Assembly (NCBI RefSeq): GCF_028281565.1
Contig: NZ_JANQJQ010000014.1
Coordinates: 53,205 to 117,204 of the forward strand
Direction of reading: 5' to 3'
Length of the DNA stretch: 64,000 nt
Origin: Seonamhaeicola sp.
Lineage (GTDB): Bacteria; Bacteroidota; Bacteroidia; Flavobacteriales; Flavobacteriaceae
The translations under genes and the position numbers were made by a program. The notes below the pieces were generated by a model. It made no database searches. It was not told the origin of the DNA and saw only the letters and a program-made list of their open reading frames with translations. Of this stretch, positions 27,086-58,285 are shown piece after piece; positions within the stretch are counted from its first letter, which is position 1; every line of letters begins with the position of its first letter.

Positions 27086-27088
27086 ATT

Positions 27089-28372: not shown

Positions 28373-28720
28373 GTAAGCAGGAATATGACACTGCTAAAAA
28401 CTGTTTTCAAAGAGATATAGAGGAACTAAACGAAAAGGAAACGAATAAAAAAAGGGCATCAGTTATCTCAGTCGGTATCAACTAAAAAAATGATTAATCT
28501 TTTTGGTAAAGCGCAGAAAAAAGTTTAAATCAATCTACTCATTCACCTATCAAAAATTTTTAAAAAGCAAAGAAAAACTTAGTTTTTAAAAGGATTGTTA
28601 ACTAAAAAACAACAATTTTACCAGTAATAGTCCATTTTGTCTTACCTCATATTTCATTGCAAAACTACTTTCATTCACAGATTATTTAGAATAAAGTTTA
28701 CCCTATTACAAATATTTTTT

Positions 28721-38945: not shown

Positions 38946-41702
38946 ATGCATCAATTTAAATTTCTGATATGCTGTGTCCTATTGACTATGCTATCATGCA
39001 ACAAAACCAAAACTAACCTAGAAAGCAATGATTTCTATGCTTACCACACCAGCTTAAAAAAGTCTGATAAACCCCACGAACGCTATGAAGATTTAATTGT
39101 TAAATTAGGCATTGGCCAATTGGAATTTAGAATCGATAATGCCTACGCTCCCATATGGCGTGTTGGAGATAAAACCTTTCCTCTTGAAGACCTTTACCCT
39201 AATCGCGAAAAAGATGACAAATCAAGGTACAGCTATGTTAGATTATTGGAGGAATCTGATAATCAAATAGTAGTACACTACAGGCATACCCCCATGCTTT
39301 CCGGCATTTTTAAAAGCATTGATGAAAACCCGCTATACAAAGGCGGTATTACCGATGTGGTCCATGAGGTTTTTACAATTAATAAGGACTACTCCATAAT
39401 AAGAGAAATTAAAGATGCAACTGGAACGCGATATGAAGATTGGGTGCATCCAGATTTTGGTTCCCTACAAAAAATCCAACTAAAGCCAAACGGGATTGAT
39501 CACAGCGCGCTTAACCAAGGAAAGTTGGCACCTATTTACCCCAGAAAAGCTTTTGAAGGAAATCCTATAATTCACACAAGTCCAGAAAACGTTGCCCTAG
39601 CCATCAAATTTGATGACGGCATGAAGTTACACGAAGACAATACTCTGGAGTCTGTTTCGGGAACCCCATGTGATATTGAAGGTGTCTCTACTCATTATAC
39701 CAAAGGAATCTCAGGCACCGCCTTAGCTTTTGATGGCTATTATACGTCTGTTTCGTTACCCACCGATAAAACGCCTAAACTGAGTAAATCTTTTACTATT
39801 AGCGCTTGGGTAGCCCCTGATGCCTACCCCTATAATAATGCACCTATTATCCATCAATCAAAAGGTTGGGGGGCTGAAGGTTTCTATTTTGGATTAAACC
39901 CTTATGGTAAAATCATATTTAAAACTAATGGAGAGGAAGTGCAATCAAAGTCCAAAATAGATTTTGGCAAGTGGTCTTTTGTATCTGTTTCTGTTAGCAA
40001 GACGGAAGCTACACTATCTATTAATGGGAAGGTTGAAGCAACAAAATCACTCAAAACACCAATCAATTTCATAAGCGCTCCCATGCAAATAGGCATGAAC
40101 AATGAGTTGGACAGGGGGTCTGATTTTGTAAGAACCAATGATGAAAACATAGATTATTACATTGGTTTTCAAGGATTAATAGATGAAATCCTCATTCAAA
40201 ATATAGCCTTAGACAATAAAGCTATGGCCACCCTATTCAACAATACGAAACCCTCAAATTTCACATCTAGCTTAGCACTAAGTGTACTACCCGGACAAAG
40301 TGAAACAGGAAAGTTTGGAGCTTACTATGCCAACTTAACCCTTAATAATGCTTTATGGGATAATTTATGGCGAAATGTTGCAAACCCAGATATAGCCGTT
40401 GAGTTTGACGGTGTTAAGGGCTCGGTTAAATTTTGGCGTGGTACCAATTATGCATCAAATTGGATTAGCGACAATAACATTTGGATGGCCGATCAAAGTA
40501 CCGAAACTTGGGGACCTCATGGATGCTCTGAACACATGGCAGATAAACAAAATCGACAAAGCTTTGCAAGAATCATTGAAAACAGTCCGGCCAGGGCCAT
40601 CATTCATTGGAAATACCCTTGTGTAGATGTTGGATACATTAACAATAATGACGACACCAATTGGTCTGATGAATATTACTATGTCTATCCAGATGGAACT
40701 GCCGTTAGAAAGGTAAACTTCAATGGTAGAGGATTACCAGAAGATGAAGAGAGCGAGGACACCTTTTCGTATGAAGAAGAGGAAGAAGAAGGCGAAGAAG
40801 AAGCGCTTTCCGAATTTTCACTGGCCACAATGGCCTGGGGAGAAGAGATGAGCAAATACAGAGACAAATTTTATCATCCGGAAAACGACACCTGGAATGA
40901 AGAAAATATAGGAGCCAATGGCCCCGGATTCCAAGATGTACAAATACTGGTTTCACCTGGAATAAAAGCCCTGGATCTAGTTGGATTAAATGCTATGGAT
41001 GTTGCTAACTTAAATGGAGAGGTTCAGAAATTACAATGGGAGCTACCAAATAAGTCCCCATTCGTTCAAATTCATGATGCATCCATTGAATTAATAAAAA
41101 CAAAATCGGAATACAGAACATTTGAAGTATTTCAGGGTGGCTATATTACGCCCTGGGGCCTTGCCGAGAATTCTGCCTACACCGATGATCCTTTTGCCGG
41201 ACCATGGAACCACTGGCCGGTAAACCTTCTGCCCTCTGATGGACGCTACGCTATTGGTAACGATCGCATCGGACATTTTGCAATCGGAGCGAATGACTTC
41301 TTACCAGCCGTTGGTGCCATGGTGCTTCACGGGATGACCAATCAAAATATAGAAACATTAGTGCCCTTGGCCAGATCATGGAAATTACCTCCGTCTATAG
41401 AACATATTTCTGGCGCTTCCTCTGTTACTTATTCTAAAGAACAAAAAGCTTTCTTAGTGGAATCTACAGGTGATAGCGTTCATTTTGAAATAATGGCTTC
41501 AGAAAAGCAGCCTGTAGTTCATCCAGCCTTTGTCATCTCTAATTGGAACGGCAATTTCAATATAAAGGTAAATGGAGAAACCATAGATACCAATAACTTA
41601 AAATCGGGTATAGAAAGAGATACCAATGGTAACATGAGATTGGTTGTATGGCTTAAATATCACAGTGACAATCCGGTATCGATTGATATTGAAAAATCAT
41701 AA
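38946..41702 (+). CDS. LamG-domain-containing lipoprotein, putative novel carbohydrate-active enzyme (paralogue of 49236-51311)
   Basis: Lipobox LSCNKT; LamG-like middle (FTISAWVAPDAYPYNNAPIIHQSKGWGAEGFYFGL...DEILIQNIALD); conserved downstream block FWRGTNY...WMADQSTETWGPHGCSEHMADKQNR...DEYYYVYPDGTAVR...NHWPVNLLPSDGRYAIGNDR. Confidence 0.75.
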   Translation: MHQFKFLICCVLLTMLSCNKTKTNLESNDFYAYHTSLKKSDKPHERYEDLIVKLGIGQLEFRIDNAYAPIWRVGDKTFPLEDLYPNREKDDKSRYSYVRLLEESDNQIVVHYRHTPMLSGIFKSIDENPLYKGGITDVVHEVFTINKDYSIIREIKDATGTRYEDWVHPDFGSLQKIQLKPNGIDHSALNQGKLAPIYPRKAFEGNPIIHTSPENVALAIKFDDGMKLHEDNTLESVSGTPCDIEGVSTHYTKGISGTALAFDGYYTSVSLPTDKTPKLSKSFTISAWVAPDAYPYNNAPIIHQSKGWGAEGFYFGLNPYGKIIFKTNGEEVQSKSKIDFGKWSFVSVSVSKTEATLSINGKVEATKSLKTPINFISAPMQIGMNNELDRGSDFVRTNDENIDYYIGFQGLIDEILIQNIALDNKAMATLFNNTKPSNFTSSLALSVLPGQSETGKFGAYYANLTLNNALWDNLWRNVANPDIAVEFDGVKGSVKFWRGTNYASNWISDNNIWMADQSTETWGPHGCSEHMADKQNRQSFARIIENSPARAIIHWKYPCVDVGYINNNDDTNWSDEYYYVYPDGTAVRKVNFNGRGLPEDEESEDTFSYEEEEEEGEEEALSEFSLATMAWGEEMSKYRDKFYHPENDTWNEENIGANGPGFQDVQILVSPGIKALDLVGLNAMDVANLNGEVQKLQWELPNKSPFVQIHDASIELIKTKSEYRTFEVFQGGYITPWGLAENSAYTDDPFAGPWNHWPVNLLPSDGRYAIGNDRIGHFAIGANDFLPAVGAMVLHGMTNQNIETLVPLARSWKLPPSIEHISGASSVTYSKEQKAFLVESTGDSVHFEIMASEKQPVVHPAFVISNWNGNFNIKVNGETIDTNNLKSGIERDTNGNMRLVVWLKYHSDNPVSIDIEKS

Positions 41703-41735
41703 CATGATAACAGACAAATAATCAACGGGACCTCT

Positions 41736-43448
41736 ATGACATCTAAGCCTAAATGTTTCTGGTTACATATGACTTTTTTCATACTGTATGCCTTTACTTC
41801 CCAAGCACAGGAAACGGGCAAATGGGGCGACCAAGGTAATGGCTTATTCAGAAATCCAATCATAGCGGGAGATTACAGTGACCCCGACCCCATTCGTGTT
41901 GGTACGGATTATTATATGGCAGCTTCTACATTTGAATCTTACCCCGGACTTACCATACTGCATTCAAAAGATTTAGTAAACTGGGAATATTCCGGAAGTG
42001 TTTTTAACAATTTAGCAGATATAAATAAAGATTTTAGATGGGATAAGATGAACAAATATGGTGATGGTATCTTTGCACCTTCTTTGCGTTACCACAATGG
42101 TAAGTTCTGGGTATTTGTTAACTTTTTTGGTGATGGGTTTTTTATGGCCACTGCAGACCATCCTTCAAAGGATTGGGAAATCCATCAAATAAAAGATAAA
42201 AATGGAAAGCCTTTAAGAACAACCAACTGGACCGACCCCTGTCCGTTTTGGGACGATAATGGAAAAGCTTATTTAGCATCCAGTCGTGTTGGCGAACAAT
42301 GGTTTGGTTACCTTTTTGAGATGACCCCTGACGGCAAACAATTATTGGATGCAGATGTGGCACATATGAATTTAGAGGACATTAAATACAATTACCCAAA
42401 AGGAGGCACTTTGTTTTCTCCATTTCAATCTACTGAAGGCAATAAAATATATAAACGCAATGGTTTTTATTATTTAGTACATATTGAATTCTTGCCGGAT
42501 GGCCAAGGTTGTGGCACTTACTTCATGCGTTCAAAACATATATACGGTACTAAAGACGATGGTACACCGGGTAGACCTGGCGATATTGGCAAATACGAAA
42601 TCTACAAAATTGGAAATGACGATTGCGAAGGCGTTAACCAAGAATTCCCAGGTCAGGGCGGCCTTGTTGACACCCCAGATGGACGTTGGTTTTGGATTGG
42701 GCAATTCAATAGAATTAATACCGATAAATATAGAGTCCCGCATTTAGTTCCTGTAACCTGGATCCATGATTGGCCCGTATTTGGTTCTAATGTAAAAAAT
42801 GGTAAAGGCCACATGCTCTGGGAAATGGAAAAACCCATTAAAGGATTTCCAATTGTTTATCCATACATCAATGATGATTTTAATGAGCCCACCTTAAATC
42901 CCATTTGGCAATGGAATCATGTTCCAAATAATAAAAAATGGTCATTAACAGAAAAAGAGGGTTATTTAAGGCTGCACGCCAGCAAAGCTAGTACATTTTA
43001 CAAAGCTCCAAATACATTGCTACAGAGGCACTTTAAAAGCGATAGCACCTTTACTACTATTAAGATACAATTTGATGGTATCGTAAATGGTCAAAAAGCA
43101 GGTCTGGCCCACTTCACCGGAGGTGAAAATTATGCCCATCTGGGAGTAGAAAAAAAAGGGGATAATCGCTTTCTTTTTTATGAGCATGATGAGCAAATCA
43201 CAGAAATAAAGGCATTGAAAGCGCATCAAAATACCCTATATCTTAAAACGAAACTGGGTATGGATAACATCACCCATTGGTTCTATAGTTTTGATGGCAG
43301 TAATTATATAAAAATCAAAAACACATATTCCATAGAAGCTAAAGGTTTTCGTGGCGATATGGTTGGTGTGTATAGTTACAATACGAAATCAGATTCAGGT
43401 TATATTGACTTGGACTGGTTTATATACGAGGTAAATAACAAGCCTTAA
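41736..43448 (+). CDS. GH43-family glycoside hydrolase with C-terminal beta-sandwich (DUF1349-like) domain
   Basis: NPIIAGDYSDPDPIRVGTDYYMAASTFESYPGLTILHSKDLVNWEYSG; APSLRYHNGKFWVFVNFFGDGFFMATADHP; WTDPCPFWDDNGKAYLA; secretion signal. Confidence 0.92.
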   Translation: MTSKPKCFWLHMTFFILYAFTSQAQETGKWGDQGNGLFRNPIIAGDYSDPDPIRVGTDYYMAASTFESYPGLTILHSKDLVNWEYSGSVFNNLADINKDFRWDKMNKYGDGIFAPSLRYHNGKFWVFVNFFGDGFFMATADHPSKDWEIHQIKDKNGKPLRTTNWTDPCPFWDDNGKAYLASSRVGEQWFGYLFEMTPDGKQLLDADVAHMNLEDIKYNYPKGGTLFSPFQSTEGNKIYKRNGFYYLVHIEFLPDGQGCGTYFMRSKHIYGTKDDGTPGRPGDIGKYEIYKIGNDDCEGVNQEFPGQGGLVDTPDGRWFWIGQFNRINTDKYRVPHLVPVTWIHDWPVFGSNVKNGKGHMLWEMEKPIKGFPIVYPYINDDFNEPTLNPIWQWNHVPNNKKWSLTEKEGYLRLHASKASTFYKAPNTLLQRHFKSDSTFTTIKIQFDGIVNGQKAGLAHFTGGENYAHLGVEKKGDNRFLFYEHDEQITEIKALKAHQNTLYLKTKLGMDNITHWFYSFDGSNYIKIKNTYSIEAKGFRGDMVGVYSYNTKSDSGYIDLDWFIYEVNNKP

Positions 43449-43505
43449 TTGTAACTAAAAGATTTAGTGAAATACTTACTTCTAAACTATTTAAAATAAA
43501 CCTTT

Positions 43506-44786
43506 ATGAAAACTTTTAATTCATTTACAGGTGCCAATACCTTTAAAGGAGATTTATGTATCATGTTGATATTATTGGTCTGTACCTTAAGTCTTGGTTT
43601 TGCTCAACAAAGTTCAATAAAAAACATCATTTATGTCAACTCTAGTTTGAGCGCTAATGGGGATGGTTCCTCTTGGAAGACGGCATACAACTCTTTAGAA
43701 ACTGCCTTATTACGAGCGAGTATAAAATCTGAAATTTGGGTAGCAAAAGGCATTTATTATCCAGAAAGAAAAGTTACCGGAAAAGATAACCGAGATCGCA
43801 GTTTTCACCTAAAAAATAACGTCACCCTTTTAGGCGGGTTTAATGGCACGGAGGAGACAAGGAATCAAAGAAATTGGAAAATAAACATAACCACACTAAG
43901 TGGAGATTTAAATCAAGATGATGAATCGGCTCAAAACCTTAGTGACAATGCTTACCATGTGGTTACCGGTAATGGAACCAACCAAACTGCTGTTATTGAT
44001 GGTTTTACTATTTCCGGAGGTAATGCTGACCAAGATGAATGGCCCAATGACGGCGGTGGCGGTATTAATATTGAGGAAGGAAGTCCAACAATTAAAAATT
44101 GTACCATTACCAATAACCGAGCCTTTGCTGATGGCGGTGGCATTCGCGTTTGGGGAGATTCTAACCCCTCTATTAGTTTTTGTTTGTTTATAAAAAACGA
44201 ATCCGTTCAGGAAGGTGGCGGCCTTATGAATGGCCCCGGAAGCCATACTAAAGTATTCAACTGTATTTTTAGAAACAATAAGACAGGCGAAGACGGTGCA
44301 GGCATGTATAATAACGAAACGACCCATCAGGTCATAGTCAATTGTCTTTTTTATGACAATGAAGCAACATTGACTGGCGGAGGCATGTATAATGTTAATG
44401 GCAGCGCTCCTTTAATAGTTAACTGTACTTTTGCTAATAACACTGCCAAAGAAGTTGGAGGTGGCATGAGCAACAGGGATAGCAACCCTATACTAAGAAA
44501 CTGTATACTTTGGGGAAATAAGGCACCTAAAAACTTTGAGATAAACAATTTAAGATCTACTCCAGATATTGCTTATAGCATCATATCCGGAGGTTATAAC
44601 GGTATGAAGATTATAGATGTTGACCCTGAATTTTCTGATAATAGATTTGAGCTATCAAATAACTCTCCAGCCATCGATTCAGGAATTAATGAAGTCTTTC
44701 CAAATGACATCTCAATTGATTTAAATGGAAATAGTAGAATCAATGATAACATCATTGATTTAGGGGCTTATGAGTTCTATAAATAA
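43506..44786 (+). CDS. Secreted right-handed beta-helix protein (choice-of-anchor-Q / Pbp-like repeats)
   Basis: IIYVNSSLSANGDGSSWKTAYNSLETAL; repeated coils SPTIKNCTITNNRAFADGGGI, NPSISFCLFIKNESVQEGGGL, HTKVFNCIFRNNKTGEDGAGM, HQVIVNCLFYDNEATLTGGGM, APLIVNCTFANNTAKEVGGGM; C-terminal RINDNIIDLGAYEF. Confidence 0.85.
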   Translation: MKTFNSFTGANTFKGDLCIMLILLVCTLSLGFAQQSSIKNIIYVNSSLSANGDGSSWKTAYNSLETALLRASIKSEIWVAKGIYYPERKVTGKDNRDRSFHLKNNVTLLGGFNGTEETRNQRNWKINITTLSGDLNQDDESAQNLSDNAYHVVTGNGTNQTAVIDGFTISGGNADQDEWPNDGGGGINIEEGSPTIKNCTITNNRAFADGGGIRVWGDSNPSISFCLFIKNESVQEGGGLMNGPGSHTKVFNCIFRNNKTGEDGAGMYNNETTHQVIVNCLFYDNEATLTGGGMYNVNGSAPLIVNCTFANNTAKEVGGGMSNRDSNPILRNCILWGNKAPKNFEINNLRSTPDIAYSIISGGYNGMKIIDVDPEFSDNRFELSNNSPAIDSGINEVFPNDISIDLNGNSRINDNIIDLGAYEFYK

Positions 44787-44908
44787 ACTGTTTCCCCAAT
44801 AACTTTTCCCCCTTATTATTAACAATTATTCATGGCCTATAAGTCGGCAAAAAAAAATAAATTTTTAGGTAGGGTAATTCTAAACGCTGTTGTTATAAAT
44901 ACAAGAGG

Positions 44909-44924
44909 GCCTGAGAAGTCAGGC
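44909..44924. terminator. Hairpin between convergent genes (weak terminator candidate)
   Basis: GCCTGA-GAAG-TCAGGC followed by ATTTCATAGGTTTTTT on the + strand. Confidence 0.35.
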
Positions 44925-45090
44925 ATTTCATAGGTTTTTTGATATTTGGTTAGTTAGTGAGGTACTATATAGGTGAATTAAAAGTTTGCCTATATTAGTA
45001 CCCCTAATTTTTAATAAGTCTTACTCGCCTTATAAAATTCAAAATAAGGTTATTAACATTACTAAAGCATACTATCCTGATTAATTTTAC

Positions 45091-46044
45091 TTATTTGCCC
45101 AAGGAACCTACTTTGAGACTTATATTTCTCTTAATAAATTTTAAATCTTTCTCTATAGCTCTTAAGACAGATTTGGGCTCTAAAGTTAATTTTCTATCTC
45201 CGTGTTCAGCGCCTCCTAACGGATACTCCAAGTGAAGCGTAATATTTCCCTGAATCTGTAAATTTTCAAGAAGCTTAGAATAAGTATCAAAATCTACATC
45301 TCCATGACCCAATGGAACATTTTCAACATGAACGCCATCTTTGGTAGTTTCCCAAACAAAATCTTTTATGTCTAGAGATTTCACATACTTATGTATGGCC
45401 TTTAAATCTGTTGTCCAAGAATTGAACCCCTCCAGAGAGGCATGGCGCACATCATATCTTATCCCCAACCATTTTGGTTTAATACTGTTATAAACTTCCC
45501 TAATATCCCAAACAGAAGCCCCAAAATCATCCCCACTATGATTTTGATAGTCAGCACGAATATTATACGTTCCACATAATCTATCCAATGCCGATAATTT
45601 TTCTCCTATTCGTGTCAAATTAAGCTCTAAACTAAGGTTTTCTTCAAAATGATACCATCCCAATCTTAACTGTTTAATTCCCAAATTAGCAGCAGTTTTT
45701 ATTATTTGTATAGTCTGTTTATCATTAGCATCAGTAATGGCAGTAGTTATTGTATCTATAATTAACCCTTCCGCTCTTATAGCTTCTACGGCTTTTGGAA
45801 GTTGCTCTTCAACCTCCTGGGGCTCAACATGACCACCAGGCCTAACGGTAAGATCAACACCATCAAACCCTAGGTTTTTTGCTACCTTGGCCATTTCTGA
45901 AAAATGCAACCATTGAAGATGTTTTGAAAAGATGTATACCCTACGTTCTTTGAATTGGCCTTTAGTAAACCTCCAATTGGGAAATCCAATAAAAACCAAA
46001 CTTGAGGCACAAACAGTATGCTTTATAAAATCTCTTCGTCTCAT
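45091..46044 (-). CDS. Tat-exported xylose-isomerase-like TIM barrel (sugar phosphate isomerase/epimerase family)
   Basis: Twin-arginine N-terminus MRRRDFIKHTVCASSLVFIGFPNW; TIM-barrel motifs GFDGVDLTVRPGGHV, RADYQNHSGDDFG, GIRYDVRHA, LDIKDFVW, LHLEYPLGG. ATG at 46044 preferred over the TTG at 46077. Confidence 0.85.
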   Translation of the reverse strand: MRRRDFIKHTVCASSLVFIGFPNWRFTKGQFKERRVYIFSKHLQWLHFSEMAKVAKNLGFDGVDLTVRPGGHVEPQEVEEQLPKAVEAIRAEGLIIDTITTAITDANDKQTIQIIKTAANLGIKQLRLGWYHFEENLSLELNLTRIGEKLSALDRLCGTYNIRADYQNHSGDDFGASVWDIREVYNSIKPKWLGIRYDVRHASLEGFNSWTTDLKAIHKYVKSLDIKDFVWETTKDGVHVENVPLGHGDVDFDTYSKLLENLQIQGNITLHLEYPLGGAEHGDRKLTLEPKSVLRAIEKDLKFIKRNISLKVGSLGK

Positions 46045-46063
46045 TGGTTTTAGGAATTTTCGA

Positions 46064-46528
46064 TTACGTTTTTTCAAAAAATGAATCTAATCCTGTTTTA
46101 TTACTTGTGGGAAATAAAACGAGCATACCTAGTGTCAACAGCTCTATTAAAATTGGATTTACAATCTGTGCAGTACCTAAAGAAAAGCTGCATAAATAAT
46201 ATAACAACAACAAAAGTAGCCCAAAATGTTTGATGGGCTTTGACAAAATTCCCAGAACCAATGAAAACCCCACAATAATCTGTCCCCAAGGGTTTATAAT
46301 ATTTGTAATTCCTAGTAGTATATCATTCTCGCTAATAGAATGAAACAAAGGAGAGAACATATTATTGGATTGTTCTAGAAAAGCCTTTGCAGACCAACTT
46401 TGTTGGAATGCTTTTTCCAAACCTTCATGTAAAAAATGCCAGCCAATAGCTATTCTAAGTCCTGTAAGCACGATGAGTTCAAGGTTTGAGTATACTTTGG
46501 TCCTGGATTCTAAAAAAAGGGGATTCAT
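46064..46528 (-). CDS. DoxX-family membrane protein
   Basis: LELIVLTGLRIAIGWHFLHEGLEKAFQQSWSAKAFLEQ...GIINPWGQIIVGFSLVLGILSKPIKHFGLLLLLLYYL-type pattern; four hydrophobic helices. Confidence 0.85.
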   Translation of the reverse strand: MNPLFLESRTKVYSNLELIVLTGLRIAIGWHFLHEGLEKAFQQSWSAKAFLEQSNNMFSPLFHSISENDILLGITNIINPWGQIIVGFSLVLGILSKPIKHFGLLLLLLYYLCSFSLGTAQIVNPILIELLTLGMLVLFPTSNKTGLDSFFEKT

Positions 46529-46547
46529 GCCTCTAAGCCTTTATCAA

Positions 46548-48119
46548 TTATATCATTATTACTTTTTCTTCGGTTTCATCCCAATCCACACGTTTCCCAT
46601 TTTGATAAGCTAGGTTCCCCATAATAAAGGTAACAGACTCCTCAAAACCAGCTTGTATATCGCAACTAACTTTAGTTCCATATCTAATGGCATCTATCCA
46701 TTCCTTTACATGAAGATACGTTGAATCTACTATAACACCACCATCTAAAGTTGTTCCAAGGCCTCTGGACTTATAATAATTTGCTGTTGCTCCAGAAATA
46801 CCATCTACCTTCTCCACTTCAAACGGAAAAGTATATATAGGGGCTCCTTCTTTTCGTTGTAGATTCATATAAGCTTCATTATATAAATCAGGGAAAACAT
46901 GTACCTCTGCTCCAATTTCCATTTGCGCCTTGGTTCCTAATAAGTGTATTCCACGGTCAAATCTACTTTTTAGGGTACAATCATAGGTAAGCGTGAGGCC
47001 TTTATCCGGATAGTTATAAATTACGTTATAAGAATCAGGGATATCCCTAGGGTCTTTAAAATAATAATTACCCCCTAAGGCTACAGCAGATTTTGGAATG
47101 CCAACACCTAAAACTTGATTTACACCATCGAAAGCATGTGTAAATTGGTTTCCTCCCGGTCCAGTACCAAAATCAAAATACTTCTGCCAATTAAAAAACT
47201 TGTCTAAATCAAAAGGCACCTTACCTGTATTTCTGATATACTCTTTCCAATTTACATTTGAAGCATTGGCTTTTGGGTCAATGCCTCTTATCCAGGCGCC
47301 AAAATCACTATTTCTATCGGTATAGGTTTCAATAGCCGAAACCGTACCAATAACACCCTGATCCAGTAATTGTTTGGCCTTTATGTAACTAGCTTGTTGT
47401 CTGTTTTGGTGCCCTAACTGAAAAACAACCTTACTTTGCTGAATAGCTTTGCGTAATGCTACTGCTTCCTCAATAGTGCGAGTCATTGGTTTTTCACAAT
47501 AAACATGAACGCCTCGTTTTGAAGCTTCTATGGCTATTTCGGCATGCCACAAATCTGCTGTTGCAATCATAATGGCATCTATACGATCATTATTTAGCAT
47601 GTCTCTATAAGTAGGATAAATTATAGGTGGTGTCACCTTTACAATTTTTCCACCAATCAATTTCTTGCTTCCAATTTTAGCACCGCGCTCTGCTCTAAGC
47701 GAGTACAAATCGCATACTCCCACAATTTCTACGTTCAAGTCTTCTTGCACTTTCATTTCCTCAAGAGTATAAGGATCTTCGGCTATTAATTCATCATCAA
47801 TATAGCCCAAAGATCGCATCAGATCCGGACCGCGCCATCCTAGTCCAACCACCCCAATACGAAGTGTCTTAGCATCCCCTATTGGCTTGAGCTGCTTTTC
47901 TTTTTCTACCTCATCAAAATCAAGTCCAAGTTTCTTAAGCGCCTCTAAATAGTTGTCTGAATTACCGCTGTCTTGTACCTGACCAAAGTGCTGAAAAAAC
48001 AATCCTAAAAAAGGTAGTCCAATCAGTCCCTTTATCAAGTTTCTGCGTTTGGTATTTCCAACGGTAACCTTTGGTGTAGCTTCTTGATACGTCTCTTCTG
48101 ATTGAGATTGTTTTTCCAT
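46548..48119 (-). CDS. Tat-type Gfo/Idh/MocA-family oxidoreductase
   Basis: Twin-arginine segment TKRRNLIKGLIGLPFLGLFFQHFG; Rossmann IGVVGLGWRGPDLM; signature VYCEKPMTRTIEEAVALRKAI. Confidence 0.92.
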   Translation of the reverse strand: MEKQSQSEETYQEATPKVTVGNTKRRNLIKGLIGLPFLGLFFQHFGQVQDSGNSDNYLEALKKLGLDFDEVEKEKQLKPIGDAKTLRIGVVGLGWRGPDLMRSLGYIDDELIAEDPYTLEEMKVQEDLNVEIVGVCDLYSLRAERGAKIGSKKLIGGKIVKVTPPIIYPTYRDMLNNDRIDAIMIATADLWHAEIAIEASKRGVHVYCEKPMTRTIEEAVALRKAIQQSKVVFQLGHQNRQQASYIKAKQLLDQGVIGTVSAIETYTDRNSDFGAWIRGIDPKANASNVNWKEYIRNTGKVPFDLDKFFNWQKYFDFGTGPGGNQFTHAFDGVNQVLGVGIPKSAVALGGNYYFKDPRDIPDSYNVIYNYPDKGLTLTYDCTLKSRFDRGIHLLGTKAQMEIGAEVHVFPDLYNEAYMNLQRKEGAPIYTFPFEVEKVDGISGATANYYKSRGLGTTLDGGVIVDSTYLHVKEWIDAIRYGTKVSCDIQAGFEESVTFIMGNLAYQNGKRVDWDETEEKVIMI

Positions 48120-48164
48120 AGTTTTCTAAAACAGTTTACTTTATGCTAAAACTTTAAAAACAGA

Positions 48165-49148
48165 TTAATAAACACCATGAATATGCTGATGCACTTGGTT
48201 GGCATAAAAGGCTTCTAAGCGTTTCATTAGACTATCCGGTAATGGATCTAAGGTGCTTGCCGTGGCGTTCCCAATCACCTGTTCTGTTGAACTTGCTCCG
48301 GGTATTACGGTTGATACGGCATCATGATCTAGGGTCCATCGTAGGGCCATTTGCACCATGGTCATATTGGGCGGACACAGCGTTTTAAGATATTCAGAGA
48401 GCGCTAGGCCCTTGTCAAATAGTAAGCCTGCAAAAGTCTCTCCAGCATTAAAAAACTTGCCGCCTTGATTAAAGTTTCTATGATCATTCTCGGCAAACTT
48501 CGTGTCCTTATTAAATTTTCCAGTTAGCAAACCGCTGGCTAAAGGCAATCTCACTATAATGCCGACACCTTTGGATTGGGCTTGCGGTAAGAGTGCTGTG
48601 CTAAGCTTTTGCCTGAAAATATTATAAATCACCTGTAGTGACTGCAGTCCGGGTTGTTCCAAGCAAATTAGGGCTTCTTCTACACTTTCCACGCTGGCAC
48701 CAAAATGGGCTATCTTCCCCTCGCGTTGCAATCTGCCTAACCAGTGGAATATAGCGCCATCTTCCAGCACGGTTTGGGGTACGCAATGCAGCTGAAGTAA
48801 ATCTATGGTCTTTTGGCCCAAACGTTCTGCCGAAGCCTCTACAGACTCCCTTAAAATAGCTTCGTTAAAATTGTTCCCCACCTTAACGGATTTTCCGAAT
48901 TTGGTAGCAACCTTAATATCCACATCGGTAGTTTTTAAAAAGGCTCCTATTAAAGATTCACTCTGTCCTTCCCCATATTCATCGGCCGTATCAAAAAAAC
49001 GGATACCCTGATCTACCGCAGTCTGAAGAATTTTGAAAGCCCTGTCATTATTCATATCGTCACCCCAATTTTTACCGCCCAGCTGCCAACAGCCAAGACC
49101 TACTTCGGTTACATGAAATCCGTTCCTACCTAATTTTCTACTTTTCAT
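48165..49148 (-). CDS. Aldo/keto reductase
   Basis: GLGCWQLGG; GIRFFDTADEYGEGQSESLIG; IKVATKFGK; IDLLQLHCVPQ; TVIPGASSTEQVIGN. Confidence 0.93.
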   Translation of the reverse strand: MKSRKLGRNGFHVTEVGLGCWQLGGKNWGDDMNNDRAFKILQTAVDQGIRFFDTADEYGEGQSESLIGAFLKTTDVDIKVATKFGKSVKVGNNFNEAILRESVEASAERLGQKTIDLLQLHCVPQTVLEDGAIFHWLGRLQREGKIAHFGASVESVEEALICLEQPGLQSLQVIYNIFRQKLSTALLPQAQSKGVGIIVRLPLASGLLTGKFNKDTKFAENDHRNFNQGGKFFNAGETFAGLLFDKGLALSEYLKTLCPPNMTMVQMALRWTLDHDAVSTVIPGASSTEQVIGNATASTLDPLPDSLMKRLEAFYANQVHQHIHGVY

Positions 49149-49235
49149 TTTTGCTTTTTTTTGATAGATCATTCTGTAAAAGGTCATTTCAAATACAGTA
49201 TAAATCCCTTTTTATTTTTTAGAGTTTTAGGATTA

Positions 49236-51311
49236 TTAGTTTAGGTTTAGTTTTACAGGTTCTCTTATATCTGTTTCAAGCCATACAATTAGGTCTTTAG
49301 ATTCTAAAGTTTTTCTAATAGCATATCTAAACCTATTTGATAGAGGCCGAAGCTTATCGTTTACCTTTAAGGCGGGAATGTTATTCCCCCAGTTTTTTAT
49401 GACGATGACCGGATTTACCAATGGAGCATCTTCCGAAGCATAAATAGCCATATTCAAACCATCTTTTTTAGCGTCTTTTTTAATTAAATGATACGCTCTG
49501 TCATTTCTGTTAAACCCTTCGTAAGTATACCCGTTACTTAGAACTTTTAACTCAGGAGTATTAATCCAAAACTTTGCAAATCCCGACAGATTTTGAATGG
49601 GTTCATCACTAAGCCCAAGTACAAAACGCCCTTCTAAAGGACCATTTTCAGTTTCGCGCTGCATTCCCGCTTCAGGCGATGTAATGGCAGAGCTGGTTAC
49701 CCTATCGTTGGCCAAAACAAAACGTCCGTCACTGGGTATTTGTGATACGGGCCAATGATTCCTCCAATGAAATTTCGATAAACGATAGTCAATTTCCTTT
49801 CTCCCGCCTCCATAAGGCCCAATTACCCCTTTCTTTTCATAAATAAAAAAAGGTTTTGTTTGGGCCTTTACATTAATAACAGACAACACTTCATTCTCTA
49901 TGGAATTTTTAAAACCACCACCTTGTAATTGTTCAGACGGCCATGTCTCAAAAGAATGGCTACTGGTTTCGCCGTCAAGGTTCATAAGGGTAACGGCAAC
50001 CATATCTATATTATCTTCTGGCCTTTCGCCCTGTCCAGACAATAAGGCGGGTTCTGTTATGCTATAGCCATCATCATAGCCATGTATCATATAATACCTT
50101 ACGGCCATACCGTCTGGATATATATAGTAATATTCATCGGCCCAATCGCCCCAATTGGTTACCGGATCCGTATTTGCAATGTTGTAGTTCACATCGGTAA
50201 GCGCATAGCGCCAATGTACCACCACTCGGGCGGCACTATTTTCTACAATACGAATATGGCTGTAGCGGTTTTGCTTATCAGACATATGTTCCATACAACC
50301 TAAATCTCCGAAAGTTTCCGCACTTTGGTCGGCTATCCACTTCCCATTTTCAGACACCAAATTCATGTTGTAATTGGTACCTTTCCAAAAGACCATGGCA
50401 TATTTTTTATCATCGAATGTAACAACCACATCCGGAAATTTATCATCTCTCCAAAGTCTATCCCAGTCCTCATCATAGTTTAACTTGGTATAATAGGCGC
50501 CAAATTCTGGCTGTTCAAGCTGTATTTCGGGTAGCTTGCGCCATTTTAACTGCGGTGCATTTTTAGGTTCTAGTTTCCTGTAGGTATGTTCCAGTTCCGC
50601 TTCAGACTTAACGGCGGCTGTAATCTTTAATTCATCAATCAACCCATCGAAAGAATATTTAACGGGCACATCCACAAAGCCTGCTCTATTGAGGGAGGAA
50701 GGAGGCATGGGCCTATGGTTTCTGGCTATCTGCATGGGAAATTCGCGATCATAAAGCAGGTCTCCTTTTACAGCTAATGCTCCCGCTAATTCCCCATTGA
50801 TATAAACCTTCATTCCCATTTCAGGATCATAGGTGGCAGCAATATAAGACCATTGCATAAAGGGAATGGTTTCCGTGCTAATACATTGACGCCACTGCCT
50901 TGCAATTGCAGCATGCAAACCAACCCTTCCTTCGGCATCGATACCAAAGAAAATACCGCGGTGCTTTTTATATTCTTGGTTATATATGGCACACCAGTTC
51001 CATGGGTAGGCCTGAGGGGCCACCCAGGCTTCAATGGTAAAAGGCCCGGTAATTACAGGAGCGGTTTCTGCTTCCCGCTGTATGGCCGTGGTAAAACCAT
51101 CGCATTTAAGTGCCTTGCCTTGAACACCTTCAACCAATCTGTAATACCCCGTTATACTATCTGAAACTGCACTGGCATGATCCATTATGGCATCATCTGC
51201 AACCGCATCAAAGTTCCAATATCCTAAAAGCGGTGCATCAGTTTGCCCATGTAATTGGATGCCCAATATGGCCATCGTTATAAAAACTTGTACTCTTTTT
51301 GTAATCTTCAT
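49236..51311 (-). CDS. LamG-domain-containing secreted protein, putative novel carbohydrate-active enzyme (paralogue of 38946-41702)
   Basis: N-terminal LamG-like region (FTIEAWVAPQAYPWNWCAIYNQEYKKHRGIFFGIDAEGRVGL); conserved block FWKGTNY...WIADQSAETFGDLGCMEHMSDKQNR...DEYYYIYPDGMAVR...NHWPVSQIPSDGRFVLANDR. Confidence 0.8.
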   Translation of the reverse strand: MKITKRVQVFITMAILGIQLHGQTDAPLLGYWNFDAVADDAIMDHASAVSDSITGYYRLVEGVQGKALKCDGFTTAIQREAETAPVITGPFTIEAWVAPQAYPWNWCAIYNQEYKKHRGIFFGIDAEGRVGLHAAIARQWRQCISTETIPFMQWSYIAATYDPEMGMKVYINGELAGALAVKGDLLYDREFPMQIARNHRPMPPSSLNRAGFVDVPVKYSFDGLIDELKITAAVKSEAELEHTYRKLEPKNAPQLKWRKLPEIQLEQPEFGAYYTKLNYDEDWDRLWRDDKFPDVVVTFDDKKYAMVFWKGTNYNMNLVSENGKWIADQSAETFGDLGCMEHMSDKQNRYSHIRIVENSAARVVVHWRYALTDVNYNIANTDPVTNWGDWADEYYYIYPDGMAVRYYMIHGYDDGYSITEPALLSGQGERPEDNIDMVAVTLMNLDGETSSHSFETWPSEQLQGGGFKNSIENEVLSVINVKAQTKPFFIYEKKGVIGPYGGGRKEIDYRLSKFHWRNHWPVSQIPSDGRFVLANDRVTSSAITSPEAGMQRETENGPLEGRFVLGLSDEPIQNLSGFAKFWINTPELKVLSNGYTYEGFNRNDRAYHLIKKDAKKDGLNMAIYASEDAPLVNPVIVIKNWGNNIPALKVNDKLRPLSNRFRYAIRKTLESKDLIVWLETDIREPVKLNLN

Positions 51312-51362: not shown

Positions 51363-52439
51363 TTAGTCTTTAACCGAAAACTTAAAAATAGTCCGTGTTG
51401 CATAGGTATCTTCAGGAGCTAATACGATTTCCGGAAAAGCAGCTTGGTTCGGGCTATCGGGAAAATGTTGCGTCTCCAGGCACAGCCCAGCGTATTTTCC
51501 ATAGGAACCATTAAGGTAATTCCCTGAATAAAATTGTATGCCCGGTTGATCTGTGTAGACCTCCATAAACCTACCACTCTTTTCATGGTAGACCTCTGAA
51601 ACTAAGGGACAGGCTGCTTCATCTGTGGTGAAATCAACCGATTCATTTATAACCCAGCAGTGGTCATACCCCTGCCCTATTTTCAGTTGTTCATTTTCTT
51701 GATCTATATCCTTTCCAATCTTTTTAAAGGCCCTAAAATCGAAGGGGGTATTTTCCACATCGGCTATCTCGCCAATGGGTATGAGCGTTTCATTTACGGG
51801 CAAATAACGATCGGAATAAATCCTTAATTCGTGGTTAAGCGTGTCTTCCTCGGTGTTTCCCGATAAATTAAAATAAGCATGCTGGGTTAGGTTAATAATG
51901 GTCTTCTTGTCTGTGAAAGCCTCATAATAAACCGCTAAGGCATTGTCGGCTGTTAACTCATAGGTCACAAAAGTCTCTAGGTTTCCGGGATAACCTTCTT
52001 CACCATCTTCACTATAATAGGACAGTGTAATGGAAACGGCATTGGCTCCCACGATTGTTGAAACAACTTCCCAGATTTGCTTATCAAATCCGTTTTCACC
52101 GCCATGTAGGCTATTGGGGAATTCATTTTTAGGCAACTGGTAGTGTTCCTCATCAATATAAAAGCTACCATTGGCTATTCTATTACAACAACGGCCGGCC
52201 ACGACCCCGAAATAAGGACCATTATCTTCAACATATCCTTCTAGGGAGTCATGTCCTAAGACTACGTTTTCTAATAACCCTTCTTTATTGGGTACATTAA
52301 TCTGGGTAATGATGGCACCGTAATTAATTATTTCCACTGCTACATTATTTTTGTTTTTCAGAATATGGCTTTCAATCTTTTCTCCGTTTGGCATTTGGCC
52401 ATAGATGCTTTTTTCAATGGTTGGTCTGTTGGTATTCAA
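51363..52439 (-). CDS. galM: Aldose 1-epimerase
   Basis: GVVAGRCCNRIANGSFYIDEEHYQLPKNEFPNSLHGGENGFDKQIW; LTQHAYFNLSGN; GLCLETQHFPDSPNQAAFPEIVLAPEDTY. Confidence 0.95.
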   Translation of the reverse strand: MNTNRPTIEKSIYGQMPNGEKIESHILKNKNNVAVEIINYGAIITQINVPNKEGLLENVVLGHDSLEGYVEDNGPYFGVVAGRCCNRIANGSFYIDEEHYQLPKNEFPNSLHGGENGFDKQIWEVVSTIVGANAVSITLSYYSEDGEEGYPGNLETFVTYELTADNALAVYYEAFTDKKTIINLTQHAYFNLSGNTEEDTLNHELRIYSDRYLPVNETLIPIGEIADVENTPFDFRAFKKIGKDIDQENEQLKIGQGYDHCWVINESVDFTTDEAACPLVSEVYHEKSGRFMEVYTDQPGIQFYSGNYLNGSYGKYAGLCLETQHFPDSPNQAAFPEIVLAPEDTYATRTIFKFSVKD

Positions 52440-52454
52440 TGTACTTCTTTTACG

Positions 52455-53852
52455 TTATAATTTCCGTTTAATTTCATAATGATGCCGCTTGGGCTGGTTG
52501 GCTATGTAGATGGCATCAACCATAGTCTTTGATTTGGATTCCAGGGCACCCACAACCGAGTAGAACTCCTTCTTTAAGTAGTTTTCTAGGCCCATGTTCC
52601 GCACCCTTAAATAGCGCTGGTAATCCGGGTCATTTACTAAATCTTCCTCTTCCTCTTCTTCTTCCTCATCTTCGTCTCCCAATTCCAAACCTTTACGCAA
52701 CAACCATTCGTCCCGTATTCTTTCTACTATTTGCTCGTTCCGTTCTTTATTGATCTGGGCCACCTTAAGCGCCTGTTGGTATTGCGGTGTTTTTTCATTG
52801 TTTTGTAATGCGACACCCGCTGCAAAATCTAAATGGGAATAGGTACCTACAAGGGAGCCATCAATCATCAACTCATAGTCGCCCGGTTCCAATCCAACCA
52901 CCTGCAAAAGTTCCTGGCCCATTTTAGAACCTGCCTCGGCAAGCTCAAAGGCCATTTGGGCATCATTGAGCACCACCCATGGCAAGGCGTTCGCTTTAAA
53001 ATCAAAAGCAATATTTGTTGGACTCTGACTACTGATCATACCATTTTCTGCGGTATAGGTCCAAGTGCCATCTTTATGATCGATTAGAATCTTAGAAACC
53101 GTGGTATTCGCTTCAATACCCTTGAGGAAGGAAAGCGCCATGATAAGCTGTCCATTATTTTCAGGATGCACGGCGTCTGACACAAAAGTGAAATTGGGAT
53201 CCTTTTTCCTGGCCATACGGGTATAATGTGTTAAATCGCCATGCAAATCGGCGTAACCATATCCTTTTAATCCCGCTATTTCGGCACACCAAGCCCCAAA
53301 AAATGATAGTACCGCATCATAATGTAAATCTTTAACTTCCTCCTTTTCAACCCAATTTTCACCAATCAAACCTTGCTGGGTATCATATATTGTTGGTGTT
53401 AAAAGTATGGTCTTGACCTTAGCTTTATCAAGCTTATTGGTCAGACTGGTCATGCTGTTCTTGTAGGTACTAAAAATAGAATCCTGCCATTTTACATATT
53501 CGCCATCATTCATCCCAATTAAAATACTCACATATTTAGGCTGGTGCTTTAAGATGTCCTCATCTAATCTTGTAAGGACATGTTCGGCAAAATCACCAGA
53601 TACCCCGGCATTTATTAAATTGATCCGTTTATTGGGGTATCGTGTATAAAAATAATCCTCAACATATTGGGTGTAGGCACATTGATGGGTGATACTATTT
53701 CCTATAAAGACGAAGGTATCACCATCTTCCAAGACTATAGGACTCAAGGTCTTTTTAAAGTTTTGGGAACCTGCATATAATGGTGCTAAGCATAGCAAGA
53801 GCCAAGCAACTCTAAAAATTTGTTTTAGTTGTCCTGTATACCTTATATGCAT
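52455..53852 (-). CDS. Secreted SGNH/GDSL-type hydrolase (putative esterase) with acidic insert
   Basis: FVFIGNSITHQCAYTQYVEDYF (GDSL-like block I), LINAGVSGDFAEHVLTRL (block II), VSILIGMNDGEY (block III), FVSDAVHPENNGQLIMA (block V Asp/His). Confidence 0.88.
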   Translation of the reverse strand: MHIRYTGQLKQIFRVAWLLLCLAPLYAGSQNFKKTLSPIVLEDGDTFVFIGNSITHQCAYTQYVEDYFYTRYPNKRINLINAGVSGDFAEHVLTRLDEDILKHQPKYVSILIGMNDGEYVKWQDSIFSTYKNSMTSLTNKLDKAKVKTILLTPTIYDTQQGLIGENWVEKEEVKDLHYDAVLSFFGAWCAEIAGLKGYGYADLHGDLTHYTRMARKKDPNFTFVSDAVHPENNGQLIMALSFLKGIEANTTVSKILIDHKDGTWTYTAENGMISSQSPTNIAFDFKANALPWVVLNDAQMAFELAEAGSKMGQELLQVVGLEPGDYELMIDGSLVGTYSHLDFAAGVALQNNEKTPQYQQALKVAQINKERNEQIVERIRDEWLLRKGLELGDEDEEEEEEEEDLVNDPDYQRYLRVRNMGLENYLKKEFYSVVGALESKSKTMVDAIYIANQPKRHHYEIKRKL

Positions 53853-53854
53853 AG

Positions 53855-55882
53855 TTATTTTTTCTTAAATCGAATGGCCAAACCACCACTTCTGGCAAGC
53901 TTTATTTTTAAAACATCGGTATTACTGACATCCTGAGATTCTATGATATAAGCCATGGGATTTTGAGCATAATCGGCCGCATCACTATCTCTATAAATTT
54001 GTGCTTCATAAGTTCCAGCCTCCAAGAAATCTAGTGTTATTTCTAATGTTCTGGAATGCGCATCTGTAATAGCTCCTAGAAACCAATCCTCAGAGTTTAT
54101 ATCCTTTCTGGCCGTTACAATATAATCTCCTATTTGTGCATCTAATATTTTGGTTGTTTCCCAATTAACAGGGACATCTCTTATAAATTGAAAAGCATCT
54201 AAGCGCTTTTCATAATTTTCAATTAAATCTGCTGCCATTTGTATGGGACTATAAATGACCACATATAAAGCCAGTTGTTTGCAAAGTGTTGTATTAACCT
54301 GGTTATGCTCCTGTTGCGGAATATCAATTTGAAAAATTCCAGGGGTAAAATCCATAGGCCCTCCCAATAATCTAGTAAAGGGCAGAATGGTTAGATGTTC
54401 TGGCGGATTACCGCCGTTTTCACCCCAAGCATTAAACTCCTGACCCCTAGCAGATTCCCTAGCAACTAGATTTGGATAGGTCCTTCTTAAACCCGTAGGT
54501 TTTATGGCTTCATGGAAATTAATAGCAAGATGATACTGCGCTCCTTTTTCGACAACTTTATTAAAATAACTTACCCCGTATTGACTGTGATGAAACTCCT
54601 TGGTGTCTAAAATGCGGTTTACATGCCCCACCTTCACGCTCTTGTAGCCTAAGTCTTCATAGAGTTTAAAAGCATCATCAATTTGATTTAAAAAATTTGT
54701 GGTATTTGCACAGGTCTCGTTATATGCCTGTATGGTTACATCCTTAGACATCGCGTAGTCTTGCAAACCTCTTAAATCGTATCTATCATGAGGTTTTGTG
54801 AAATTTTGATTTGGCCCCCAATCGCTATGCCAGTCTTCTTCGAAACCTTCATTCCAGCCTTCTACCAAAACTTCGTCAAAACCGTACTTGGCGGCAAAGT
54901 CTATATATTTTTTTGTGTTTTCTGTAGTAGCGCCAACATTTGGCCCAGGATTCCAGGTCCAATTACCAATATGTATACCCCACCAAATGCCGATGTATTT
55001 CATCGGATTTACCCAAGAAACATCTCCTAATTTATTTGGTTCATTTAGATTGATAATCAGGTTTGACTCAATTAAATCACCTGGTTTATCTCCTATTTGA
55101 ATGGTTCTCCACGGTGTTTTAAACGGTGTTTTAAGCTTTACTTTTACCCCATCTTGCCAAGCATATAATTCACTTTTCAATGTTCCAGCTTGGGTTGTCT
55201 TTAAAGCCATACTCGAATAATCAACCAAGGCCGCTTCATGTAAACTAATGAACTTCCCATTCAGGGTCTTTATGGTAATTGGTGTTTCGGCTGTTTCAAT
55301 GGCTCCTAGCTTTGATTTTTTGTAATACTGTTCATATTTCCCATGGAAAAATGCAGGTATATGCCATGCTTCATGCTCTTTAGTAAAGGCAAATTCTGTA
55401 AGTTCATTCATAATATTAACAGAATCTATCTTTTCTTGTTCAGGCACTAAATATCTAAAACCAACCCCGTCGTTAAATACTTTGAATTCTAATGAAAGCT
55501 TTCTTAAAGATTCTTTTTCTTCCAAATGAACTAGCAGACGTTTATGATGATCTCTTACCAAACGATTTTGTCCCCATGGTTGTTCCCATGTTTCGTTGGC
55601 TTCGGTAACTTGAAAATCTTTTATTTCCAGATTAGACTTTAAAGACGGGATGTTTTTAAATTCAAACCCTAAATTGGCATTAGATATTAAAGTGTCATTT
55701 TTATGAATAATAGAGTAAGCCATATTGAAGTTTGAGTTGTCAAATTCCAATATGATATTGTTATCAGGTGAGCTAATTGATATTTTGTTCTGTTCCGTTT
55801 TATCACAACCTAAAACAACGGTAATTATAACTGCCGATAATGCACACCGCACCAGGCATGTAATTCCTAATTTATTTATCAT
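53855..55882 (-). CDS. GH97-family glycoside hydrolase (SusB-like)
   Basis: Lipobox VLGCDKT; N-terminal ISISSPDNNIILEFD; catalytic-domain motifs DEVLVEGWNEGFEEDW, NFHEAIKPTGLRRTYPNLVARESARGQEFNAW, TPGIFQID. Confidence 0.92.
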   Translation of the reverse strand: MINKLGITCLVRCALSAVIITVVLGCDKTEQNKISISSPDNNIILEFDNSNFNMAYSIIHKNDTLISNANLGFEFKNIPSLKSNLEIKDFQVTEANETWEQPWGQNRLVRDHHKRLLVHLEEKESLRKLSLEFKVFNDGVGFRYLVPEQEKIDSVNIMNELTEFAFTKEHEAWHIPAFFHGKYEQYYKKSKLGAIETAETPITIKTLNGKFISLHEAALVDYSSMALKTTQAGTLKSELYAWQDGVKVKLKTPFKTPWRTIQIGDKPGDLIESNLIINLNEPNKLGDVSWVNPMKYIGIWWGIHIGNWTWNPGPNVGATTENTKKYIDFAAKYGFDEVLVEGWNEGFEEDWHSDWGPNQNFTKPHDRYDLRGLQDYAMSKDVTIQAYNETCANTTNFLNQIDDAFKLYEDLGYKSVKVGHVNRILDTKEFHHSQYGVSYFNKVVEKGAQYHLAINFHEAIKPTGLRRTYPNLVARESARGQEFNAWGENGGNPPEHLTILPFTRLLGGPMDFTPGIFQIDIPQQEHNQVNTTLCKQLALYVVIYSPIQMAADLIENYEKRLDAFQFIRDVPVNWETTKILDAQIGDYIVTARKDINSEDWFLGAITDAHSRTLEITLDFLEAGTYEAQIYRDSDAADYAQNPMAYIIESQDVSNTDVLKIKLARSGGLAIRFKKK

Positions 55883-55888
55883 TATATC

Positions 55889-58285
55889 CTAAAAGTTAAT
55901 TTGATGTGATTCCCCTATTTCACCTTGGAAAGGAATTACTTGATCTCCGAATTTTATCTTGGTAGAGCGCCCTGCTTTTGAAGTTATGGAGACTTTAAAA
56001 GGTTTGCCTTCCTTCCATTCCATATCTACAACAAAACCACCCCTGGCGGGTAAGCCTTTTACTTTACCATTAGGCCAGTCTTTTGGCAATGCGGGCAATA
56101 ACTCTATTTCATCTAATGTTGATTGCAATAACATATAGGACACCACTGCTGGCAGACCACCACTTATATCCATATTGAAAATACTCTCGGGATCGTGATA
56201 AGACACAAAACCAGGTGTCCAATAGGAGTTTACCAGCCAATTAACACATTCTTTTGCCAATGCGGTATCTTTAAGATGGGCCGAGGCCATTCCCAGCTGT
56301 ACCAGCCCAAAGGCCATGACGCCGCCATTATTATCACGTCTGTAAACCATTCTTGCTTCTATAGCTTTTCTGGCAGCCTCTTGTAGTGCTTTATCATCTT
56401 TAAATTCTGGATCCATGCCGTCATACAACGGATATAGATGTGAGGCGTGCCTATGGTCATTATTGTTTTCATAGCCATCCCATATCCACTCTTTTAACTC
56501 TCCATTGTTATCTATGGCGTATTCTGGTAATGCTTCTAATATACCTTCATATTCTTCAATGCTCTCTTTTGGTATATAGCCTTGTTTTGCCAACGTTATT
56601 AAATTTCTGAGTAACTGTTTCATGGCCGCCACATCCATAGTGGCGTTAATGGCCACAGGATGTTTATCCAAAGGTCCTATTTCCGGTGAGTAAGAAGGAA
56701 TAAACATATAATCTCCTTCTCCCGTTTTATATAAAATCTGACTTAAAAAGTCGTAAGCCTTTAGCATAAATGGTAGTGCCTTGTCTTTAAGGTATTGCTC
56801 ATCCATGGTGTATAACCATTTGTCATAATGAAAATGGGCTGCCCAGGCTGTTCCAGCATACCAATATAAGTGCGGAAAATATTCGGCATAATGGAATACA
56901 CTTCCAAACTCGCTAGCTCTTGAAGGCACATAGATACCATCCAGCCCATACATGGCCCTGGCATTATACTTAAAATCGTCCATCATGCTATCCAACATAT
57001 TTAAATAGGCATCTGTCAACTCTTGATAGTTGGTATTTAATCCTAATGCTATTACCGAAGGGACATTACCATTTAAAGTAAAATCACCTGACCAAGCAGG
57101 TCTCCATGTACCACCCCATATACCTTGCAATGCTGGAGGCGTAGCCCCGGTGCTGCTAATAACATTATATCTACCTGCTTTAAGGGCTTGTACTATTAAA
57201 TCTGGATTGGTACTTTCAAAACTGGAGGAAGCCAGCAATTCATTAGATGTAAGGTATATACTCTTATTCTCTCCCAGCTCAAGACTAAATCTGTTGAACA
57301 TTTCGCCATGAATCTTTGCATGTGGTGACAAAAGCTTATCGTAGGAAGGCTCCAGGGCATCGAGTTTATTTTTTAAAGCTTCTTTTTGGTTGCCTTCTGC
57401 TTTATCGTAACTTAATTTTATAGCTGAAAGCACCAAAATTTCATCGGCATTTGTTACTTCTATGGAATTTCCCTTTAACTTGACAGAACCATTTTTATTT
57501 ATAATCTTAGAAAGCACGCTGTATGATTTTAAAGACCCTTCCCATTCCTTTTTAAAAGTGGTCTGGTACGACAAATAATGATCTTCAGCCGATATATTTA
57601 AACTGGTGAATGCCGTAGGGTCAAATACTTCTTCGTCATCTTCGGCTTCCAACTGTGGTAATTGATTTAAAAGAAAGGTGTAATTAAGTTTGCTACCCGT
57701 TGGGCTCTTAATATGAAAAACAGCAACATTGTCTTTTCTTGATACAAATGCTTTTCTTGTAATGACTTCGCTTTCCGTGCCATAATTCACAGCTACTTCT
57801 CCCGTTTCATAATTTACAGTTCGCGCATATTTTTCATTTTTAATAGGCTTTATGGCCTGAAATTCCAACTGGCATGCTGGAATATGCGGGTTGGTCCATA
57901 CAAAATCATCTACAATACCTATTTTCTTTCCTTCCTCTACAGCCACCATTGAAGCCTCTTTCTCCTTACCTTGAAAAATAAGCGTTCTTATATCATCCAA
58001 TCTACTTCCTAAATTTGGAGCCTTTAAGGGCTCATATTCTGGCATGAATAGTTTCTCATGACTTAATACGATTCTATCTTTATGGACATCACCTGGAATT
58101 AACATGCCTATGGTACCATTACCGCTAATAGCAGATTCTTCCCATTTAGAAGCCGGAGCCTTACTTAAAAACCCATGCTTCGGAAAAGCTTCAAAAATTT
58201 CTTTTGTATTTGTCTGGTTTATTTTCGACTCACAGGAGCACAAACAAATAGCAGCTATCAGATATATAAAAGGCTTTCTCTTCAT
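55889..58285 (-). CDS. GH95-family alpha-L-fucosidase/alpha-L-galactosidase
   Basis: Lipobox LCSCESK; ISGNGTIGMLIPGDVHKDRIVLSHEKLF; PPALQGIWGGTWRPAWSGDFTLNGN; FIPSYSPEIGP; NNDHRHASHLYPLYDG. Confidence 0.92.
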   Translation of the reverse strand: MKRKPFIYLIAAICLCSCESKINQTNTKEIFEAFPKHGFLSKAPASKWEESAISGNGTIGMLIPGDVHKDRIVLSHEKLFMPEYEPLKAPNLGSRLDDIRTLIFQGKEKEASMVAVEEGKKIGIVDDFVWTNPHIPACQLEFQAIKPIKNEKYARTVNYETGEVAVNYGTESEVITRKAFVSRKDNVAVFHIKSPTGSKLNYTFLLNQLPQLEAEDDEEVFDPTAFTSLNISAEDHYLSYQTTFKKEWEGSLKSYSVLSKIINKNGSVKLKGNSIEVTNADEILVLSAIKLSYDKAEGNQKEALKNKLDALEPSYDKLLSPHAKIHGEMFNRFSLELGENKSIYLTSNELLASSSFESTNPDLIVQALKAGRYNVISSTGATPPALQGIWGGTWRPAWSGDFTLNGNVPSVIALGLNTNYQELTDAYLNMLDSMMDDFKYNARAMYGLDGIYVPSRASEFGSVFHYAEYFPHLYWYAGTAWAAHFHYDKWLYTMDEQYLKDKALPFMLKAYDFLSQILYKTGEGDYMFIPSYSPEIGPLDKHPVAINATMDVAAMKQLLRNLITLAKQGYIPKESIEEYEGILEALPEYAIDNNGELKEWIWDGYENNNDHRHASHLYPLYDGMDPEFKDDKALQEAARKAIEARMVYRRDNNGGVMAFGLVQLGMASAHLKDTALAKECVNWLVNSYWTPGFVSYHDPESIFNMDISGGLPAVVSYMLLQSTLDEIELLPALPKDWPNGKVKGLPARGGFVVDMEWKEGKPFKVSITSKAGRSTKIKFGDQVIPFQGEIGESHQINF

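Follow-up and report, generated by a model that had tools for sequence, protein, structure and literature searches.

The two proteins and their domains

The analysed window is a 64,000-nucleotide stretch of a Seonamhaeicola genome; two intact open reading frames, P0001 (918 aa; 38946..41702, + strand) and P0002 (691 aa; 49236..51311, − strand), were located in it, in agreement with the earlier note. P0001 has the architecture half-core + LamG + core (type B) and starts with a lipoprotein-type signal (LTMLSC), P0002 consists of LamG + core (type A) and starts with an ordinary signal peptide; both signals were read by eye and agree with the secretion that had been proposed for the two proteins. 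In P0001, LamG (Laminin_G_3; aa 263–422, 39732..40211, +; Pfam E 1.6e-20) is followed by the core (aa 440–917, 40263..41696, +), inside which a poly-acidic insert lies (aa 598–625, 40737..40820, +). In P0002, LamG (Laminin_G_3; aa 86–239, 50595..51056, −; Pfam E 1.3e-17) precedes the core (aa 251–690, 49242..50561, −) with the signature residues E332, E341, R362, Y398 and H519; alignment to P0002 gave E520, E529, R550, Y581 and H757 as their counterparts in P0001. The LamG domains sit where they had been placed before and scored 74.2 and 64.8 bits with PF13385 (gathering threshold 27.6), an assignment that holds for the LamG part only.

The N-terminal region of P0001 (about aa 28–175, 39027..39470, +), previously taken for an extra, separate domain, turned out to be half of the core in degenerate form, homologous to the segment around core positions 20–175 (HH probability 100%, E 2.9e-38); this half-core was detected with E 6e-5 in P0001 itself and with 1e-20 and 2e-14 in paralogues. 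The motifs FWxGTNY, W(M/I)ADQSxETxGxxGCxEHMxDKQNR, DEYYYxYPDGxAVR and NHWPVxxxPSDGR...NDR, on which the relationship had been based, were all found in both proteins. P0001 and P0002 are 30% identical over 726 columns (BLASTP, LamG plus core; E 9e-87), a similarity beyond chance. Four layouts occur in the family: LamG + core (P0002), half-core + LamG + core (P0001), core alone (C-type) and core + core; LamG normally precedes the core, and the half-core often sits ahead of LamG + core. LamG is a clear domain of both proteins, yet an appended module: the core is unrelated to it, and some members are devoid of it.

Sequence searches and distribution

Full-length P0002 searched against Bacteroidota drew many LamG-only matches, and the core or a core profile was therefore used in later searches. 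Sequence searches of Pfam, NCBIfam, PHROG and PDB gave no family to which the core of P0001 or P0002 could be assigned, which upholds the view that it has no recognised family; a profile built on 36 cores gave nothing credible in Pfam or PDB profile searches, tblastn against plasmids gave no match, and no description of the family was found in literature searches. A PHROG match was rejected for the core, as it covers the LamG region; a match to the CarC2 (C-deglycosidase) profile was judged to be chance (E 0.22 over 44 residues only). The P0001/P0002 family appears to be previously undescribed, set apart by comparison with Pfam, NCBIfam and PDB, which stood in for CAZy models.

Fifty-nine full-length core sequences were collected from a few Bacteroidota and Planctomycetota genomes; identities of family members to P0002 range from 23% to 74%. 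The Seonamhaeicola genome holds seven core genes, five of them besides P0001 and P0002 (contig C27); further members turned up in MAGs of Allomuricauda, Sedimentisphaerales (44 matching stretches, >30 genes by count) and, by its label, Caldisericaceae, in Flagellimonas algicola and in one more genome of Bacteroidota, G321. Sampling with the core profile gave 2/396 positive genomes in Bacteroidota and 10/392 in the Planctomycetota group; within the genus, the core was present in one of seven genomes. Few genomes carry the family and its occurrence is scattered, but where it does occur it is strongly expanded.

P0001 and P0002 fell into separate well-supported clades in a tree of 61 cores, each clade with Flagellimonas and Allomuricauda orthologues (best identity 82% and 74%), and for this reason the two genes are old paralogues rather than products of a local duplication. 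The Sedimentisphaerales orthologue of P0002 (about 70% identity) points to a transfer between phyla. The Allomuricauda and Sedimentisphaerales MAGs (L009, L012), with P0002 orthologues ~70% identical, come by their names from one sample, PL25a, in which co-resident phyla carry the same core family.

Predicted fold

The AlphaFold model of the P0002 core (pLDDT 90.6, pTM 0.92) is all-beta apart from short helices and consists of a super-sandwich, a helix (core 322–333) and an all-beta C-terminal module; the model of the half-core (pLDDT 83.6) folds alone in prediction. In these models the conserved unit is shown as a galactose-mutarotase-type beta-super-sandwich followed by the all-beta C-terminal module. 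Best solved matches of the core in Foldseek were GH2 LacZ and GH38 (E 3e-6 to 1e-4), LacZ giving the best value of 3e-6 at a global TM of only about 0.3; the half-core matched LacZ and, weakly, galactose 1-epimerase. The part shared with LacZ (domain 5) and GH38 is the galactose-mutarotase-like super-sandwich; since the global TM is low, the predicted core is assigned to this fold at the superfamily level at most.

LacZ domain 5, the GH38 C-terminal region and GalM share the predicted fold with the core; unlike them, the core has no detectable sequence relation to these families and no TIM barrel or alpha/alpha partner, and it has a signature of its own and the fusion to LamG. No Pfam match of the core to GalM (PF01263) was obtained, and hhalign to the GalM of the window itself gave a probability of 0.1%. 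With regard to GH2 and GH38, neither a Pfam match nor a catalytic TIM barrel or GH38 domain was present. As a rule, the super-sandwich domains of GH2 and GH38 have an accessory role and do not carry the catalysis.

Signature residues

Half-cores served as an internal control for full cores; Fisher p values are indicative, being calculated without correction for sequence relatedness. Conservation in full cores vs half-cores: E332 – 57/59 vs 4/26 (p 3e-14); E341 – 57/58 vs 9/21 (p 6.5e-8); R362 – 59/59 vs 5/27 (p 5e-16); Y398 – 58/59 vs 7/23 (p 9e-11). H519, in the second half of the core, is kept in 54/57 and is missing in some distant members. Two full-length cores without E332/E341 both adjoin an intact core, one in a tandem protein (L121) and one in a neighbouring gene (L114). 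Because E332, E341, R362 and Y398 are kept in full cores only, the signature is more in keeping with an active site than with a lectin and, as judged from conservation, speaks for an enzyme rather than a binding module.

No difference between full cores and half-cores was observed for D294, D345, R368, Y369 and R405. Being equally conserved in the degenerate half-cores, D345, R368, Y369, R405 and E393 are more likely structural than catalytic; the active site that had been read from the conserved motifs is supported for the polar set lost from half-cores and is less likely to include these residues. The comparison of full cores with half-cores yields a short, testable list of residues.

Gene neighbourhood

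A SusC/SusD pair, read from sequence, lies upstream of P0001 (31839..36793, +) and a GH43 with GH43_C2 downstream of it (41736..43448, +), the + strand group being SusC/D–thioredoxin–P0001–GH43. Directly downstream of P0002 is an aldo/keto reductase (AKR; 48165..49187, −), which is kept next to orthologues; GalM, SGNH esterase, GH97 and GH95 (51363..58285, −) belong to the same operon as P0002, and the − strand group reads SusC/D–GH95–GH97–SGNH–GalM–P0002–AKR–Gfo/Idh, convergent with the + group. The placing of both genes in the same PUL is imprecise for the window, with its two convergent groups, and finds support in Flagellimonas and Allomuricauda, where the P0001 and P0002 orthologues are ~2.2 kb apart, with AKR and phosphotriesterase-like genes between them; this spacing makes one shared system credible. 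A SusC/D pair abuts the P0001 orthologues in both genomes.

GH29 genes were found within 3 kb of a core in 3/5 cases in G443 (p 8e-4) and 3/7 in G321 (p 9e-5); core loci contained 11 GH29 (two of them counted twice) vs 0 in control regions. In the Seonamhaeicola genome, one of 18 GH29 is near a core and they are mostly elsewhere. GH95, sulfatases, SusC/D and SGNH esterases occur in the same clusters as core genes. Pfam tallies of Planctomycetes neighbours gave mostly dispersed singletons, GH29, FGE-sulfatase and DUF1080 being among those met twice; AKR and Gfo/Idh are not constant neighbours of cores outside Flavobacteriaceae.

Genes for Gfo/Idh (BT_2158-like glycoside 3-dehydrogenase), an AP_endonuc_2 TIM barrel and DUF1080 (3-keto-disaccharide hydrolase) were observed near core loci (window, 45091–48119; L047, 19186–19875; L120, 11091–12963), which suggests an oxidative 3-keto glycoside route alongside hydrolysis.

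Function of the core family

The core family quite probably comprises enzymes rather than binding proteins, and a glycoside hydrolase acting on a fucose-containing polysaccharide is the single most likely function, at a little less than an even chance. On this reading, P0001 and P0002 would be distant relatives within one so far undescribed family of carbohydrate-active enzymes that the cell exports, most likely glycoside hydrolases. From the neighbouring genes we infer fucose as the putative substrate; the substrates of GH29 and GH95 extend to further sugars, L-galactose among them. The substrate would be held by LamG and probably by the half-copy too, and the concave face of the super-sandwich would cleave the fucose-containing, probably sulfated polysaccharide, the carboxylate pair E332 and E341 acting as acid and base or nucleophile with assistance from R362, Y398 and H519; further processing of the fragments would fall to the GH29/GH95 fucosidases and the sulfatases encoded at the locus, and the multiple paralogues of a genome would differ in the linkage or the sulfation pattern that each of them serves. 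That the whole active site is housed in a free-standing galactose-mutarotase-like super-sandwich with no barrel partner, in a glycoside hydrolase family acting inside sulfated fucans with the decayed half-copy as a substrate-guiding module, is a more doubtful proposal.

The earlier note had left a new glycoside hydrolase or a lyase open, and the fucosidase/sulfatase setting is compatible with that. A polysaccharide lyase acting on a polymer of fucoglucuronan type would use its super-sandwich to take the proton from C5 of a uronic acid by Tyr/His chemistry, an Arg neutralising the carboxylate; Tyr398, His519 and Arg362 resemble lyase sets, and PL4 rhamnogalacturonan lyase, a catalytic super-sandwich, is a precedent, although the core has no Pfam PL4 match and PL4 is not among the 50 Foldseek matches listed for it. 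This reading is rather unlikely: several distant members lack H519, no GH88/GH105 gene was found near any core locus examined, and G443 (~30 or more core matches) and G440 (~8) have none genome-wide above the cut-off; on account of this absence the hydrolase is favoured over a uronate lyase. Other routes for unsaturated uronates exist besides GH88/GH105. Lyases acting on fucose polymers are known (FdlA; PMC9410043), which also counts for a lyase; FdlA and FdlB resemble P0001 and P0002 in secretion, fucose-polymer context and size (about 697 aa), but their right-handed beta-helix, discoidin domain (C-terminal in FdlA) and Por tail (PMC9410043) are unlike the core and place FdlA outside the core family. 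Identity with FdlA/FdlB, suspected from the similar length, was rejected on fold; the core profile gave no PDB sequence match.

Still less likely is a non-catalytic surface glycan-binding protein composed of LamG and a beta-sandwich binding module; in its favour, LamG commonly serves for binding, super-sandwiches of glycosidases are frequently accessory domains and half-cores are retained despite the loss of signature residues, yet two invariant Glu with an invariant Arg and Tyr are rare in binding modules as divergent as these (23–74% identity to P0002), and C-type members are cores without LamG. Action as a sugar or polymer epimerase, as a mutarotase or within the oxidative 3-keto-glycoside route is improbable; the GalM-like fold, the weak match of the half-core to galactose 1-epimerase, the nearby DUF1080, TIM-barrel and BT_2158-like Gfo/Idh genes and the chance-level CarC2 match (E 0.22) speak for it, and the missing sequence relation to GalM (HH probability 0.1%) and the inconstancy of AKR and Gfo/Idh outside Flavobacteriaceae against it.

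Sulfated polysaccharides that contain fucose are hard to degrade and are regarded as a carbon store in the ocean; for many steps of their breakdown we know of no enzymes. A family with seven copies here and >30 in one Planctomycetes MAG, in every case out of reach of current annotation, deserves attention in the search for the missing steps.

Further observations at the core loci

Long poly-acidic (Asp/Glu) inserts occur at varied places in core proteins of two phyla and also in neighbouring GH29, GH95, DUF1080 and SGNH genes (window, 52455–53852, SGNH, aa 390); the loci are the window, L103, L104, L112, L115, L118 and L120, and 0/253 control genes contained such an insert at the same threshold; inserts of P0001 orthologues were included in this scoring. 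Of the 13 GAN-repeat sites in the whole G443 genome, 6 are no more than 3 kb away from a core gene.

A conserved block of ROK regulator, SSS symporter, Zn-ADH, iron-ADH (FucO-like) and PfkB kinase travels with core genes in several genomes (L048, 5224–11707; L123; L125; L130) and is probably a monosaccharide catabolic arm. Giant secreted proteins, some of them 1700–1900 aa long, occur inside core clusters or close to them (L047, 7343–18789; L049, 5565–15354; L124; L130); judged by eye they are of the G8/parallel-beta-helix type, and one has a T9SS tail. In the window, two proteins without a Pfam match at 1e-5 read GH5-like; they belong to a separate mannan-type PUL (17641–29704) with GH26, GH130, AGE epimerase, sulfatase and GH10.
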